Below are positions 7,257-12,848 of a stretch of 64,000 bases of DNA, piece after piece. The stretch spans positions 31,727 to 95,726 of the forward strand of contig NZ_JACESA010000014.1 of the NCBI RefSeq assembly GCF_013912065.1. Reading direction: 5' to 3'. The number at the start of each line of letters is the position of its first letter. Positions within the stretch are counted from its first letter, which is position 1. Both the position numbers and the translations under genes were made by a program. The DNA is from Brevundimonas sp. (GTDB lineage Bacteria > Pseudomonadota > Alphaproteobacteria > Caulobacterales > Caulobacteraceae). The notes below the pieces were generated by a model that made no database searches, was not told the DNA's origin, and saw only the letters and a list, made by a program, of their open reading frames with translations.

Positions 7257-8285
7257 TCAGGCCGGTTCTTCGGAAACGCGAACCAGCAGCTTGCCGTCGT
7301 GATCGCCGGTGAACAAGCGGTTCAATGAGTCCACCGCGCCTTCCAGTCCGTCATCGACATGGACCTTCCACTTGACCTTGCCTTCGGCGAGCCACGGGCC
7401 CATCTCGGCGACCATTTCGCGGGCGCGGTGGGCGTAGTCCAGCACCAGGAAGCCCTGAACGTTAAGGCGATGGGTGATGAGGCGGGCGAAGTTCGGCGAC
7501 GGCGGCGCCTTGGTCGCATTATAGGACGACACCAGCCCGCATACGGCCATGCGGCCATGCACCTTCAGACGATTGAACACGGCGATCATGATGTCGCCGC
7601 CGACGTTTTCGAAATTCAGTTCGATCCCGTCCGGCGCCAGTCGATCCAGCGCCGTGCCTACATCCTCGTTCTTGTAGTCGACAGCCGCGTCGAAGCCGAG
7701 TTCATCCGTCAGCCAGGCGCATTTCTCCGGCCCGCCGGCGATGCCGATGACCCGGCAACCGCGCTGTTTGGCGATCTGCCCGGCGATGGATCCCACCGCG
7801 CCGGCCGCCGCCGAGATCACGAGGGTTTCGCCGGCCTTGGCCTTCAAGACATCGGTTACGCCGAAATAGGCGGTCAGGCCGGTCATGCCGAGGACCGACA
7901 TGTTCGCCGTCAGCGGCATTCCCGGCGCGCGGTGCACCGGTCGCAGGCCGGTGTCCGGCACGACCGCATAATCCGCCCAGCCGCCCGAGGCCGGCATCAC
8001 CACATCCCCGACCTTGAACCGGTCCGAACGGCTGTGCTCGACGACGCCCAAGGTCAGGCCGCGCATGACCTCGCCCAGGGCTACGGGCGGCAGATAGCCT
8101 TCGGAATCGTTCATCCACGTGCGATTGGTCGGATCCAGCGACAGATAGACGGTGCGGACCAGAACCTCTGAATCGTTCAGCGCGGGGATCGGGCTCTCCA
8201 CCAACTCCAAGTCGCCGGGCTGGATCAGCCCCCGTGGTCGTTGGCGCAGCACCCATTGGCGATTGATCTTGCCGTTCGAAGCCAT
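7257..8285 (-). CDS. NADP-dependent zinc-free medium-chain reductase (CurA/leukotriene B4 dehydrogenase-like)
   Basis: A 342-residue enzyme of the zinc-independent MDR family. It begins with the family pattern RQWVLRQRPRGLIQPGDLEL, has LDPTNRTWMND near residue 50, and a nucleotide-binding AAAGAVGSIAGQIAKQRG Rossmann motif near residues 155-175. Relatives reduce alkenals and enones using NADPH, with curcumin reductase as the best-known example. The ATG is preceded by a GGAGAG ribosome binding site. The downstream MaoC-like gene suggests a shared acyl or carbonyl pathway, but this is only context. Confidence 0.88.
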   Translation of the reverse strand: MASNGKINRQWVLRQRPRGLIQPGDLELVESPIPALNDSEVLVRTVYLSLDPTNRTWMNDSEGYLPPVALGEVMRGLTLGVVEHSRSDRFKVGDVVMPASGGWADYAVVPDTGLRPVHRAPGMPLTANMSVLGMTGLTAYFGVTDVLKAKAGETLVISAAAGAVGSIAGQIAKQRGCRVIGIAGGPEKCAWLTDELGFDAAVDYKNEDVGTALDRLAPDGIELNFENVGGDIMIAVFNRLKVHGRMAVCGLVSSYNATKAPPSPNFARLITHRLNVQGFLVLDYAHRAREMVAEMGPWLAEGKVKWKVHVDDGLEGAVDSLNRLFTGDHDGKLLVRVSEEPA

Positions 8286-8361
8286 GCGTCTCTCTCCGTG
8301 CGTTTTCTTTATAGACCATCCTGACCCGAGCGAACGCGACGGTCGAGGCCTATTCGGAAAG

Positions 8362-8476
8362 AAAAAGGGCGACCCATGGCGGGCCGCCCTGAAAGTGGCA
8401 TCATCGAGAATGAGGCGCGGAGGCGACAGATTGGCTGTCGCCAATCTCAAGTCGGGGGGCGTCGCCGCCTCCGCAG
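8362..8476 (-). ncRNA. gsrN: GsrN-like general-stress small RNA (predicted)
   Basis: The minus strand holds a compact transcription unit with no reading frame. An exact EcfG promoter would start a transcript of about 110-115 bases, and a strong intrinsic terminator (10-base stem, 5-base loop, T5CT3 tail) ends it. The 5' half folds as nested stems: outer GCGGAGGCG... with ...GTCGCCTCCGC, and an inner AGATTGGC-GACA-GCCAATCT hairpin. Between them lies an unpaired run of six C. This matches the known features of Caulobacter GsrN: sigma-T control, about 105 nt and a C-rich loop that pairs with target mRNAs such as katG. The identity is inferred from architecture and promoter, not from alignment. 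Confidence 0.78.
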
Positions 8477-8482
8477 GCCGAT

Positions 8483-8507
8483 AACGGCACGTGTGAACAG
8501 TGGTTCC
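8483..8507 (-). promoter_or_regulatory. EcfG (sigma-T) promoter of the GsrN-like RNA
   Basis: On the minus strand the sequence reads GGAAC, 16 bases, CGTT. This is the exact EcfG consensus and spacing. It faces the GsrN-like RNA with a predicted start 7-10 bases downstream. No other minus-strand gene lies between it and the terminator. Confidence 0.88.
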
Positions 8508-8567
8508 CGACGTCGTCGGATTTATTTCACACGCCACATAACCGGGACAGCCATAGGGCCCGCAGGC

Positions 8568-8592
8568 GGAACGTCGCCTCTCACCCCGCGTT
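8568..8592 (+). promoter_or_regulatory. EcfG promoter of the small membrane protein gene
   Basis: GGAAC, 16 bases, CGTT is an exact EcfG consensus. It lies 38 bases before the ATG of the 115-residue membrane protein and is divergent from the GsrN-like promoter, with about 60 bases between the two -35 elements. Confidence 0.87.
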
Positions 8593-8630
8593 GAGCGGCG
8601 GCCAGAAAAATAACAGCGGGAGCCCCGGAC

Positions 8631-8978
8631 ATGACCCAGCAAGATCCCCACGCCAATACAACGAAGGTCCACACGCTTCGCCCGGTGGACGCCAAGTCGG
8701 CCCGTCAGGGTCGCTCAGGCACGCGAATTCTGTGGGTTCTGATCCTTTCGGCCGGCGCGGCGGCCTTTTTGATGATCGGGATCTGGTTCTTCAGCCAGTG
8801 GGGGCTGTCGGCGACCAACGCCAATGACGGCGATCAGCCGGTGGACGTGCAGGCTTTCCAGGACGACGCCGCCACTCCGCCCGCCGCAGACGCCCCGACG
8901 GGACCCAACGGAGAAGCCCGGCCGCAGCCCACCGGCGAAACGCCCAACGTCAACGCCCCGACCGAGCCGTCCAACTGA
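8631..8978 (+). CDS. Small single-pass membrane protein of the stress regulon, function unknown
   Basis: A 115-residue protein with a basic N-terminus, one transmembrane segment at about residues 33-55 (ILWVLILSAGAAAFLMIGIWFF), and a Pro/Ala/Asp-rich, probably periplasmic tail. I recognise no domain. A GGGAG ribosome binding site stands 8 bases before the ATG. The exact EcfG promoter upstream places it in the general stress response, between the GsrN-like RNA and phyR. The tail is of low complexity, so a tether or envelope sensor is possible, but no function can be read from the sequence. Confidence 0.8.
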   Translation: MTQQDPHANTTKVHTLRPVDAKSARQGRSGTRILWVLILSAGAAAFLMIGIWFFSQWGLSATNANDGDQPVDVQAFQDDAATPPAADAPTGPNGEARPQPTGETPNVNAPTEPSN

Positions 8979-9038: not shown

Positions 9039-9833
9039 TTAGGCGGCTTCCTTGTGACGCGAAGGGTGGAAGAACAGCGCCTGACTGATCGCCGCCTTCA
9101 CCGTCTCCGGCTGGAAGGGTTTGGTGATCAGGAAGGTCGGTTCGGGACGTTCGCCGGTCAGCAACCGTTCGGGGAAGGCGGTGATGAAGATCACCGGCAC
9201 GTCGATATTCTTCAGGATTTCCTTGACGGCGTCGATCCCCGAAGAGCCGTCGGCCAGCTGGATGTCGGCGAGAACAAGGCCCGGCTTGTGACGGGCGACG
9301 GCGTCGATGGCCTCCTCGTGCGTGGTGGCGGCGCCGGTCACGCGGTGACCCAGTTCCTTCACCAGGCTCTGGATGTCGGCGGAGATGATGGCCTCGTCCT
9401 CGATCACCAGGACGTCGGTCGCCAGTTCGGCGTCGATGTCGGACTGGGCGTCCGCGATCAGGCGTTCGACGTCGCGCGCGTCAGCCGACAGGATCTGGGC
9501 CGCTTCCGACGGCGTGAAGCCCTCGAGCGCGGTCAGCAAAAACGCCTGACGGGACCGCGGCGCGATGCGGAGCAGCCGGCTCGAGGCGTCGCTGCCGCCT
9601 TCGGCCTCGCCGCCGTCCTCCAACTGCGCTCCGGTCGAGGACCAGATGGCGTGAAAGACGTGATACAGGGCGACGCGAGGCGTCATTTCCGGCGAAAGCT
9701 GTTGCTCGCCTGCAGCCAGCGCTTCCAGCGCGACGCGGACATAGTTGTCGCCGGTGGCCTGATCGCCCGTCAGCGCCCGCGCATAGCGACGGACATAGGG
9801 CAGGTGCGGCGCAAGTCTGGCCAATAGGCTCAT
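9039..9833 (-). CDS. phyR: General stress response regulator PhyR (sigma-like/receiver anti-anti-sigma factor)
   Basis: The 264-residue protein has an N-terminal sigma-like domain (residues 1-135, beginning MSLLARLAPHLPYVRRYARALTG as in other PhyR proteins) and a C-terminal receiver domain. The receiver shows the acidic pair E145-D146, phospho-acceptor D190 in VLADIQLADG, the FITAF segment and K238 in ITKPF. When phosphorylated, PhyR binds NepR and frees EcfG. I chose the conserved MSLLARL start rather than an ATG 18 bases upstream. The gene is divergent from nepR-ecfG and has its own exact EcfG promoter, so it takes part in a positive feedback loop. Confidence 0.97.
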   Translation of the reverse strand: MSLLARLAPHLPYVRRYARALTGDQATGDNYVRVALEALAAGEQQLSPEMTPRVALYHVFHAIWSSTGAQLEDGGEAEGGSDASSRLLRIAPRSRQAFLLTALEGFTPSEAAQILSADARDVERLIADAQSDIDAELATDVLVIEDEAIISADIQSLVKELGHRVTGAATTHEEAIDAVARHKPGLVLADIQLADGSSGIDAVKEILKNIDVPVIFITAFPERLLTGERPEPTFLITKPFQPETVKAAISQALFFHPSRHKEAA

Positions 9834-9896
9834 ATAGGTAGTCCCCGACAAAGTTTGCTGAACCGTCCCTTCGGACGCAGCGCTACAGCGGATCGA

Positions 9897-9921
9897 AACG
9901 TATGAAATGGATCACGGTTCC
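9897..9921 (-). promoter_or_regulatory. EcfG promoter of phyR
   Basis: The minus strand reads GGAAC, 16 bases, CGTT, an exact consensus about 65 bases before the phyR start. It indicates that EcfG activates transcription of its own activator PhyR. Confidence 0.9.
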
Positions 9922-9961: not shown

Positions 9962-9986
9962 GGAACCCAGCGACGAGGGCGACGTT
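9962..9986 (+). promoter_or_regulatory. EcfG promoter of nepR-ecfG
   Basis: GGAAC, 16 bases, CGTT is an exact consensus about 50 bases before the nepR ATG. Together with the divergent phyR promoter 40 bases away, it makes the whole module autoregulated. Confidence 0.9.
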
Positions 9987-10034: not shown

Positions 10035-10238
10035 ATGATTGATTCTTCCGATTCCTCGCGGCGCAAGGGCGCCGACAAAGCGGGGGAGGCGGGGCTCGAG
10101 GAAGCTCGGCTTCGCCAACAGGCTATCGGCGTCAAATTGCGCCATATGTTCGACGAGGTCGTCAACGAACCCGTGCCAGATGAATTCCTGGACATTCTGA
10201 AGCGCGCCGACGCCAAGTCATCGGGTGGTGGCGCATGA
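10035..10238 (+). CDS. nepR: Anti-sigma factor NepR
   Basis: A 67-residue protein with the NepR core IGVKLRHMFDEVVNEPVPDEFLDILKRAD near residues 31-60. NepR holds EcfG inactive until phosphorylated PhyR takes it away. I chose the ATG that opens MIDSSDSS. A GTG 18 bases upstream is possible. The gene lies downstream of an exact EcfG promoter, and its stop codon overlaps the ecfG start as ATGA, so repressor and sigma factor are translationally coupled. The N-terminal part is charged and probably disordered, as is usual for the family. Confidence 0.95.
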   Translation: MIDSSDSSRRKGADKAGEAGLEEARLRQQAIGVKLRHMFDEVVNEPVPDEFLDILKRADAKSSGGGA

Positions 10239-10846
10239 GTTCCCCTCGCCTGGGCGCCGCGCCTAAACCCGCGTCCGCAGATGACGAGGGCTTCAAGCGC
10301 GAACTGGTCCAGCTGATTCCTCATCTGCGCGCCTTCGCGCGAACCTTGACCGGCGATCCGACCGCAGCAGACGACCTGGCCCAGGACGCCATGATGAAGG
10401 CGTGGGACGCCCGCGCCAGCTATCAGATGGGCACCAACATGAAGGCCTGGACCTTCATGATCCTGCGCAACCAGTTCTATTCCGAAAAACGCCGGTCCTG
10501 GCGCCAGTCGCAACTGGATCAGGAAGCGGCCGAGCGGACCCTGGTGGCGGTCGATGATCCCGAGGCGCCGGTCGCCCTGGACGAACTGCGTCAAGCGCTG
10601 AAGACCCTGCCTGAAGAACAGCGCGAGGCCCTTATCCTCGTCGGCGCGGGCGGTTTCGCCTATGAAGAGGCGGCCGAAATCTGCGGCTGCGCCGTGGGGA
10701 CCGTGAAAAGCCGGGTCAGCCGCGCGCGCCGGGCGCTTCAGGCCACGCTCGAAAAGGGCGGTTACGGGCGCGACGGCAAGGCCGCCGGCGACGCCATGCG
10801 CACCATCCTGGGCGAGGCCGACAGACTGGCCGGCGCCAGGTCCTGA
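10235..10846 (+). CDS. ecfG: General stress ECF sigma factor EcfG (sigma-T)
   Basis: A 203-residue ECF sigma factor. Region 2 spans about residues 20-85, with DPTAADDLAQDAMMKAWDARASYQMGTNMKAWTF-type sequence, and region 4 spans about residues 118-172, with LPEEQREALILVGAGGFAYEEAAEICGCAVGTVKSRVSRAR as its helix-turn-helix. It directs RNA polymerase to GGAAC-N16-CGTT promoters. The ATGA overlap with nepR and the shared promoter give stoichiometric coupling. Six matching promoters occur within this window alone. A sensor kinase gene follows after 6 bases on the same strand. Confidence 0.97.
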   Translation: MSSPRLGAAPKPASADDEGFKRELVQLIPHLRAFARTLTGDPTAADDLAQDAMMKAWDARASYQMGTNMKAWTFMILRNQFYSEKRRSWRQSQLDQEAAERTLVAVDDPEAPVALDELRQALKTLPEEQREALILVGAGGFAYEEAAEICGCAVGTVKSRVSRARRALQATLEKGGYGRDGKAAGDAMRTILGEADRLAGARS

Positions 10847-10852
10847 GCCTCG

Positions 10853-12661
10853 GTGACGCAGGGGTCCAGATCAGGCGACGCCGAGACCCGGCCTCGTCTC
10901 GGCCGGAAATGGAGCACGGCCCGGTTTCAGGGCATCCGCTTTCGGCTCGGCACGGCCATGGCCCTGGCCCTGCTGCCCTTCTTCATCCTGATCCTGATCC
11001 AGACCCAGGCTGACTTCAGCCGACAGGCGGAGGATCGCAAGATCGATCTGCAACTGGCCGCGGAACGCAGCGCCGGCGACGCCAAGGCGCGGCTGGACAG
11101 CGCCCAGGTGCTGTTGCGGGCCCTCAGTCCAGATGCGCTCGGCCCCTATTGCGCCCCGCGTCTTACGGCCCTGGTCGATCGGCTGGAGGGCTACGAAGGC
11201 CTGTACCGCCTCAGCCCCACCGGCGATGCGGTCTGCTCGTCCGGGCGGCTGGACGGCCTTCGTTCCGGCGTGGCCCCGGCAGCGCAGGCGGACTGGTTCC
11301 AGCGCCTGCGACAAGGCGAGGAAATGGTCGTGGTCCGGGCGCCGGCCGACGCAGGCTATCCGGCGGCCCTGATCATCGCCATCCGCGCGGAGCGGCCGAT
11401 GGGACGGTTCGACGGCGCCATGGCCGCCGTCATTCCCCTGTCCGTCCTTCAGCCCGACATCCGCGATCCCGCCCTGCCCGCCGCATCCGAGGCCGCCCTG
11501 ACCGACGGCGCGGGCCGCATACTGATCGCCAGCGATCCCGCAGCCTTCCACCTGTCCGACGGCGGCGACGTGTCGGGCTGGGTCGCCCGAGCACGTGACA
11601 GGGGTTCGGCCGTCTTCGCAGCGACCGACAGTCGTAATCAGCGCCGCGACTACGCCGGCGCCGTGCTCGCGGGCGGCGATCTCTATGCCCTGTTGTCGGC
11701 GCCGGCGCCGGGACTGCTATCGTGGGCGCGGCTGAATCCGATCGGCACCCTGCTGCTGCCGCTGGGCGCCTGGCTGGCCGCCTTCGCGGCGGTCATGCTG
11801 CTGTCGGAACGCATCTTCATCCGCTGGCTCGACTATCTGGAGCGGATCGCGGCCCTCTACGCCAGGGGACGGTTCTCGGTGCGGCCGTTGCAGGCGATGA
11901 ACGCTCCGTCCGAGATTCGCACCATGGCCCGGACCCTGGACGAGATGGCCGAGGCCATCACCGTCCGCGACCGCGAGCTGATGAACTCCATCGCCGAGAA
12001 GGACGCGCTGATGCGCGAGATCCATCACCGGGTGAAGAACAATCTGCAGATCATCTCCTCCCTGCTGTCCATGCAGCAACGGGCCCTGACCGACGCCCCG
12101 GCCAAGGCGGCCCTGGGCGACACGCGCCAGAGGATTTCGGCCCTCGCCCTTATCTATCGCACCCTCTACCAGAGCGAGGATATCCGTCACGCCGACGCAC
12201 GCGACTTCCTCACCGAACTGGTCGGGCAGCTGATCGCCAGCGAAGCCGGCAGAGGACCGGTCGTGATCAGTTCAGTGGATGCGGATTCCCTGCTGGTCGA
12301 TCCCGACAAGCTGGCGCCGCTCGCCCTCTGGCTGGTCGAGGCGGTGACGAACGCTCAGAAGCACGCCTTCGCGGGGCGGGGCGGGTCGCTGAAGGTCCGC
12401 TTCCGGGTTCACGGCGACACTTCGGTGTTGGAGGTCGAAGACGACGGTCCCGGCCTCGCGTCCGGTGCGGAGGCGGGTGTCGGACGAACCCTGATGGGGG
12501 CCTTCGCCAAACAGTTGCGGGGCGAAGCGGAATTCTTCGAGGCGCCGGAAGGCGGAGCTATCGCCCGCATGACCTTCGCAACGCCTGAAGCGCTTTCGCC
12601 CGTGGATCCCGCCGACAAGACGAGCGCGGCCGACGGAACCGGCGCCGTGCGGTCGCGTTGA
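10853..12661 (+). CDS. PhyK-like sensor histidine kinase (HWE/HisKA_2 family)
   Basis: A 602-residue kinase with a GTG start. It has a transmembrane helix near residues 33-51, a periplasmic sensor domain to about residue 290, a second helix near 298-318, a HAMP-like linker, and a HisKA_2 dimerisation domain. The phospho-acceptor histidine is near residue 392 in IHHRVKNNLQIISSLL. The ATPase domain follows, with EAVTNAQKHAF and EDDGPGL motifs. HWE/HisKA_2 kinases beside ecfG, such as Caulobacter PhyK, phosphorylate PhyR. Orthology to PhyK is inferred from position and family. The 3' end of the gene carries an embedded EcfG promoter for the next gene. Confidence 0.86.
   Translation: MTQGSRSGDAETRPRLGRKWSTARFQGIRFRLGTAMALALLPFFILILIQTQADFSRQAEDRKIDLQLAAERSAGDAKARLDSAQVLLRALSPDALGPYCAPRLTALVDRLEGYEGLYRLSPTGDAVCSSGRLDGLRSGVAPAAQADWFQRLRQGEEMVVVRAPADAGYPAALIIAIRAERPMGRFDGAMAAVIPLSVLQPDIRDPALPAASEAALTDGAGRILIASDPAAFHLSDGGDVSGWVARARDRGSAVFAATDSRNQRRDYAGAVLAGGDLYALLSAPAPGLLSWARLNPIGTLLLPLGAWLAAFAAVMLLSERIFIRWLDYLERIAALYARGRFSVRPLQAMNAPSEIRTMARTLDEMAEAITVRDRELMNSIAEKDALMREIHHRVKNNLQIISSLLSMQQRALTDAPAKAALGDTRQRISALALIYRTLYQSEDIRHADARDFLTELVGQLIASEAGRGPVVISSVDADSLLVDPDKLAPLALWLVEAVTNAQKHAFAGRGGSLKVRFRVHGDTSVLEVEDDGPGLASGAEAGVGRTLMGAFAKQLRGEAEFFEAPEGGAIARMTFATPEALSPVDPADKTSAADGTGAVRSR
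12635..12659 (+). promoter_or_regulatory. EcfG promoter of the entericidin gene, inside the kinase gene
   Basis: GGAAC, 16 bases, CGTT is an exact consensus that lies entirely within the last codons of the kinase gene. The -10 element ends two bases before the kinase stop codon ends, and the entericidin ATG is 52 bases further on. Confidence 0.82.
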
Positions 12662-12710
12662 GAAGGCCAAGACCGACAGACTCCCGTGTCGGCTCAACCG
12701 GAGCTTTCTC

Positions 12711-12848
12711 ATGCGCAAGATTTTCGTACTGTTCGCCGCCGCCGCCGCCCTGACCACCGCCGCCTGCAACACCGTCGAAGGCGTGGGCCGCGACACCCAG
12801 GCCGCCGGTCAGGCCGTCACGGGCGCCGCCCAGGACGCCCAGAACTGA
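12711..12848 (+). CDS. Entericidin A/B-like lipoprotein
   Basis: A 45-residue lipoprotein precursor. It has a short basic start (MRK), a hydrophobic Ala/Leu stretch, the lipobox LTTAAC at about residues 14-19, and a mature part of about 27 residues (CNTVEGVGRDTQAAGQAVTG and onward) typical of the entericidin family. Entericidins are small membrane-active lipoproteins first described as a stationary-phase antidote/toxin pair. In alphaproteobacteria they are common members of the general stress regulon. An exact EcfG promoter sits upstream and a strong terminator follows, so this is probably a monocistronic stress gene. Confidence 0.88.
   Translation: MRKIFVLFAAAAALTTAACNTVEGVGRDTQAAGQAVTGAAQDAQN

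Follow-up and report, generated by a model that had tools for sequence, protein, structure and literature searches.

The window, by which we mean the whole 64,000-nucleotide stretch of Brevundimonas DNA analysed here, carries a gap at positions 8286 to 8630, between an oxidoreductase gene whose start lies at 8285 on the minus strand and an open reading frame (ORF) that starts at 8631 on the plus strand. A cmscan search assigned the minus strand of this gap, at 8367 to 8472, to the Rfam family RF01529 (CC3552), with a match that spans model positions 1 to 106 of 106 and scores 102.7 bits, where the family's gathering score is 50 bits. It is the sole RF01529 match at E ≤ 0.001 in the 3.54-Mb genome, and the predicted RNA would be about 106 to 112 nt long. 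The original prediction had described this stretch as an unannotated small RNA with the parts of Caulobacter GsrN, and had proposed a covariance model as a check; the match bears out the likeness, while the word "unannotated" applies to the raw window only, since Rfam already has the family.

The other parts of the predicted gene are in place as well. An exact EcfG-type promoter, GGAAC-N16-CGTT, lies at 8483 to 8507 on the minus strand. The window contains five exact copies of this box against 0.51 expected, a number reached by none of 100 shuffles, and the other four precede a 115-aa ORF, phyR, nepR and a small lipoprotein-like ORF. In its minimum-free-energy fold, the minus strand from 8361 to 8472 forms a nested 5′ hairpin, with a run of six cytosines (8454 to 8459) in an open loop, followed by a 3′ terminator hairpin. 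The fold energy of -54 kcal/mol (z = -4.37) was equalled by none of 200 shuffles. The loop includes the sequence CCCCGAC (8451 to 8457), the complement of GUCGGGG. Both the fold and a terminator scan place the stem of a predicted intrinsic terminator at 8366 to 8390, followed on the minus strand by TTTTTCTTTCC, with its T tail at 8361 to 8365. The scan finds three such sites in 1.1 kb against 1.2 expected, and so is weak evidence when taken alone. Promoter, nested hairpin with six unpaired cytosines and T-tailed terminator had all been proposed from the sequence, and each was recovered in our analysis, the terminator as a sequence prediction.

The gene is embedded in a general stress response locus, with phyR, nepR, ecfG and phyK all within about 4 kb. 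Downstream, on the same strand, lies a zinc-type oxidoreductase gene (7257 to 8285; ADH_N_2 and ADH_zinc_N domains). Divergent from gsrN is the 115-aa ORF (8631 to 8978, plus strand), which has no Pfam or NCBIfam match and is preceded by its own exact EcfG-type box at 8568 to 8592 on the plus strand. Then follow phyR (9039 to 9833, minus strand; PhyR_sigma2, PhyR_sigma-like and Response_reg domains, and the PhyR family model), with an exact box at 9897 to 9921 on the same strand, and on the plus strand an exact box at 9962 to 9986 in front of nepR (10035 to 10238; Pfam NepR) and a sigma factor gene (10235 to 10846; Sigma70_r2 and r4_2), which we name ecfG from its place after nepR. The sensor kinase gene phyK (10853 to 12661, plus strand) scores above the cut-off of the PhyK model NF051872. 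At the end of phyK, the segment from 12635 to 12848 on the plus strand holds an EcfG-type box and then a 45-aa ORF that by eye resembles an entericidin-type lipoprotein.

We compared this arrangement across an alignment of 61 loci, comprising the window and 60 high-scoring loci, 20 each from Brevundimonas, Caulobacter and Phenylobacterium. In 53 of the 60 high-scoring loci, phyR lies within 3 kb of gsrN (19/20 in Brevundimonas, 15/20 in Caulobacter and 19/20 in Phenylobacterium). A direct physical link between gsrN and phyR had been proposed for this locus; the position beside phyR is correct, and the link itself is already in print (Tien et al, 2018; PMC5869019). The oxidoreductase adjoins gsrN in all 20 Brevundimonas loci and in none of the 40 Caulobacter and Phenylobacterium loci. 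The 115-aa ORF lies no more than 1 kb from gsrN in 19, 15 and 4 of the 20 loci of Brevundimonas, Caulobacter and Phenylobacterium, respectively. Among the loci that have this ORF, an EcfG-like box stands before it in 19/19 in Brevundimonas, 0/15 in Caulobacter and 0/4 in Phenylobacterium, against a background of 292 in 5000 random stretches.

Across the family Caulobacteraceae, RF01529 matched 208 of 299 sampled genomes and 17 of 22 genera, with 201 of the genomes scoring above the cut-off, and gave no match in the other 91. Of 289 genomes sampled across the class, it matched three, all of them Brevundimonas. A pattern scan of our genome collection returned at least 119 loci, many in unrelated bacteria; when 14 of these loci were scanned with Rfam, RF01529 was present in nine, all Caulobacteraceae, and absent from the other five, all outside that family. 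Second matches of 35 to 37 bits, below the cut-off, occurred in four genomes and were taken as chance; two of the four were examined and by eye lie in aspartate carbamoyltransferase coding sequence.

The stem of the 5′ hairpin covaries. Over its 17 base pairs, 48 distinct 5′ halves have a standard pair in 812 of 816 cells, and eight of the 17 pairs change on both sides. The loop, whose loss in close relatives would have counted against the original prediction, keeps a run of at least six cytosines in 61/61 loci (range 6 to 10), although in a few Brevundimonas genomes a diverged copy carries an altered loop. The run is mostly seven in Brevundimonas and Caulobacter and eight in Phenylobacterium, compared with six in the window and in C. 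vibrioides. A strict EcfG box stands at the expected place in 37 of the 61 loci (17/21 in Brevundimonas, 19/20 in Caulobacter and 1/20 in Phenylobacterium) and a relaxed box in 52 (18/21, 19/20 and 15/20, in the same order). A tail of at least four T is present in 21/21 Brevundimonas loci, 4/20 Caulobacter loci and 13/20 Phenylobacterium loci, so that the terminator is less clear beyond Brevundimonas. Since 60 of the 61 loci were chosen as high-scoring, conservation in this set is overstated.

Eleven of the sampled Brevundimonas genomes gave no RF01529 match in the family search. When these were searched less strictly, six (G174, G198, G207, G210, G237 and G267) proved to have a weak match next to phyR, and a script search turned up a related motif next to phyR in G231. 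In G279, G267, G198 and G231, the diverged loop beside phyR reads TTCCCCCG rather than C6-8GAC. Some of the listed absences are thus fast-evolving copies.

Overall, the covariance-model match, the EcfG box, the C6 loop, the terminator and the site beside phyR argue that the minus strand at 8367 to 8472 is the gsrN orthologue of Brevundimonas, served by an EcfG-type promoter and a terminator of its own, within the general stress response locus; we put the probability of this sequence-based reading at about 0.93. From the matching length and loop and the single match in C. vibrioides, we infer that Rfam CC3552 is GsrN (CCNA_R0081). The gene is a well-supported but unexceptional copy within a known family, in a context that has already been published.

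We next considered what the conserved loop might bind. In C. crescentus, the GsrN loop is described as pairing with GUCGGGG, the seven nucleotides with which the katG mRNA begins (Tien et al, 2018; PMC5869019), and stabilization of katG mRNA was the function that the original prediction carried over to this locus, together with a search for G-rich complementary sites in katG leaders. The genome studied here does carry katG. Its leader contains neither GUCGGGG nor TCGGGG, and agrees exactly with the loop complement over no more than 4 nt. From 194 genomes that gave a katG match, we examined 89 katG regions (30 returned as loci and 59 chosen from the three genera). Sites were counted in the 200 nt that precede each profile match, a set length used since some katG start codons are uncertain; five of the 89, from two other genera, lie outside the three-genus comparison. 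GTCGGGG is present in 9 of 28 Caulobacter leaders (0.9 expected from shuffles) and in none of 36 Brevundimonas (0.4 expected) or 20 Phenylobacterium leaders (0.5 expected), a contrast between genera with a Fisher p value of 1.9e-5. Moreover, at least nine genomes with gsrN above the cut-off have no katG match. The loop is therefore kept where the validated site, or the katG gene itself, is missing. Because the sites are missing, we infer from these sequences that katG is not a target of the loop in Brevundimonas, in which case the loop must be held by other targets; the katG function proposed for this locus is thus not supported by its own katG leader or by the 36 Brevundimonas leaders.

That GsrN works here exactly as in C. 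crescentus, with its loop pairing to the katG leader and raising KatG, is accordingly very improbable, even though the genome has katG and the loop keeps CCCCGAC. Some room for this reading comes from weak or imperfect pairing. When we compared duplex energies between the loop and katG leaders with those of shuffles at the 0.05 level, 0/28 Caulobacter leaders passed, and 1/36 and 1/20 leaders did in Brevundimonas and Phenylobacterium; Caulobacter leaders with the known site were not singled out either, so this test does not discriminate. A reading with still less chance of being right is that the RNA is no free small RNA but the cis-acting leader of the oxidoreductase gene that lies 77 nt downstream of it, with the terminator serving as an attenuator and EcfG reaching the gene by read-through. 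The shared strand and the invariable adjacency of the two genes in Brevundimonas are what such a leader would predict, but the RNA is conserved in the 40 Caulobacter and Phenylobacterium loci where the oxidoreductase is not its neighbour, and C. crescentus GsrN is described as acting in trans (Tien et al, 2018; PMC5869019).

Searches for other targets of the loop gave no enrichment. Full-loop complement sites numbered 8 in the genome itself, against 18 for a backward control, and 75 in 41 Brevundimonas genomes, against 144; the backward control differs in dinucleotides, so these counts show no depletion either. Loop duplex energies at the starts of six genes of the locus, again set against shuffles, gave scattered low fractions, for example 7/15 for phyR in Caulobacter and 5/19 for ecfG in Brevundimonas, and since the test spans six genes in three genera we draw no conclusion from it. 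One element in the phyR leader deserves separate consideration. The block GTCGGGGA (9842 to 9849, minus strand) is both a possible ribosome-binding element and a complement of the GsrN loop. It is unchanged in 20/20 aligned Brevundimonas phyR leaders, in which no other block from the EcfG box to the start codon is invariant. Among 50 Brevundimonas phyR leaders, the block reads GTCGGGGA in 39, GTCGGGGT in one, ATCGGGGA in five, GTCGGGAA in four and CTCGGGGA in one. GTCGGGG, a 7-mer identical to the katG site of C. crescentus, thus occurs in 40 of the 50, 5 to 11 nt before the ATG. Caulobacter phyR leaders have GGGAGGGGTC at the position of the block, and TCGGGG was not found in the tested stretch of these leaders.

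These observations raise the possibility of a local feedback, in which the CCCCGAC of the GsrN loop would pair with GUCGGGG at the ribosome-binding position of phyR and tune PhyR synthesis, so that the small RNA would regulate its own activator. The invariance of the block and its identity with the katG 7-mer speak for such pairing, as does a calculated loop pairing of about -15.5 kcal/mol for the majority of leaders that carry GTCGGGG. Covariation between loop and leader, which we sought as a sign of this feedback, failed to appear: all five genomes whose loop lacks CCCCGAC (G213, G198, G231, G267 and G279) keep GTCGGGG in the leader, and of the ten genomes with a changed block, seven (G282, G240, G210, G049, G002, G066 and G225) keep the CCCCGAC loop, while two of the remaining three gave no clear reading. 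The spacing of the block and its pairing with the ribosomal anti-Shine-Dalgarno (-5.7 kcal/mol) fit a plain ribosome-binding site. The element is also mostly paired in the fold (mean openness 0.30), GTCGGGG shows no enrichment across the window (29 against 27.9), and the lead arose post hoc, as one of six leaders tested. In C. crescentus, moreover, GsrN is described as having no feedback on transcription of the general stress response (Tien et al, 2018; PMC5869019). We therefore regard local feedback on phyR as unlikely, and its fuller form, in which the phyR leader in place of katG is the conserved GsrN target of Brevundimonas and feedback on its own activator is built in, as very slightly more doubtful. 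Because the block does not covary with the loop, a plain ribosome-binding role, as read from the sequences, is likelier than pairing with GsrN.

Taking the locus as an orthologue of gsrN, we can outline how it may act by analogy with C. crescentus GsrN. Under stress, PhyR would free EcfG from NepR, and EcfG would then transcribe gsrN. The RNA would be cleaved downstream of the 5′ hairpin, and its open, C-rich loop would pair with G-rich sites in several mRNAs, altering their translation or stability. In Brevundimonas, to judge from the missing sites, conservation of the loop would be held by targets other than katG. The gene itself is one more copy of a published family. Its value lies in a contrast: the loop is kept across the family, while the single target site that has been validated is confined to some members of Caulobacter. 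With the loop kept and the katG site restricted, the ancestral target of GsrN becomes a testable question, and the identity of the conserved target is the main interest of this locus.

Several known systems can be set beside this one. The GsrN-like RNAs proposed in Rhizobiaceae by Tien et al (2018; PMC5869019) share an EcfG box, a place near the general stress response locus and an open 5′ loop, but RF01529 has no match outside Brevundimonas in our 289 class-wide genomes. The Rfam family itself is matched over its full length, with a 3′ linker between the cleavage region and the terminator that varies between genera. A BLASTn search by Tien, Fiebig and Crosson (2018; PMC5869019) recovered gsrN homologues from three genera, Caulobacter, Brevundimonas and Phenylobacterium. 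These genes typically lie close to ecfG/sigT, nepR and phyR, though not in C. crescentus, and conservation is strongest in the C-rich loop. The Brevundimonas and Phenylobacterium homologues predicted there (Figure 9) belong to the same family and occupy the same position as ours, and we found no difference from them. C. crescentus GsrN (CCNA_R0081) is described in that paper as transcribed from a sigma-T promoter and cleaved to a stable 5′ isoform of 51 to 54 nt, with stabilization by Hfq reported and the target behind its hyperosmotic protection stated to be undefined. Our locus is unlike it in lying beside phyR, whereas the C. crescentus gene lies away from phyR, and in missing the katG leader site GUCGGGG. 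In its build the predicted RNA is alike: C. crescentus GsrN is 106 nt long and has a nested 5′ hairpin, six tandem cytosines in a loop with CCCCGAC, an EcfG/sigma-T promoter and an intrinsic terminator.
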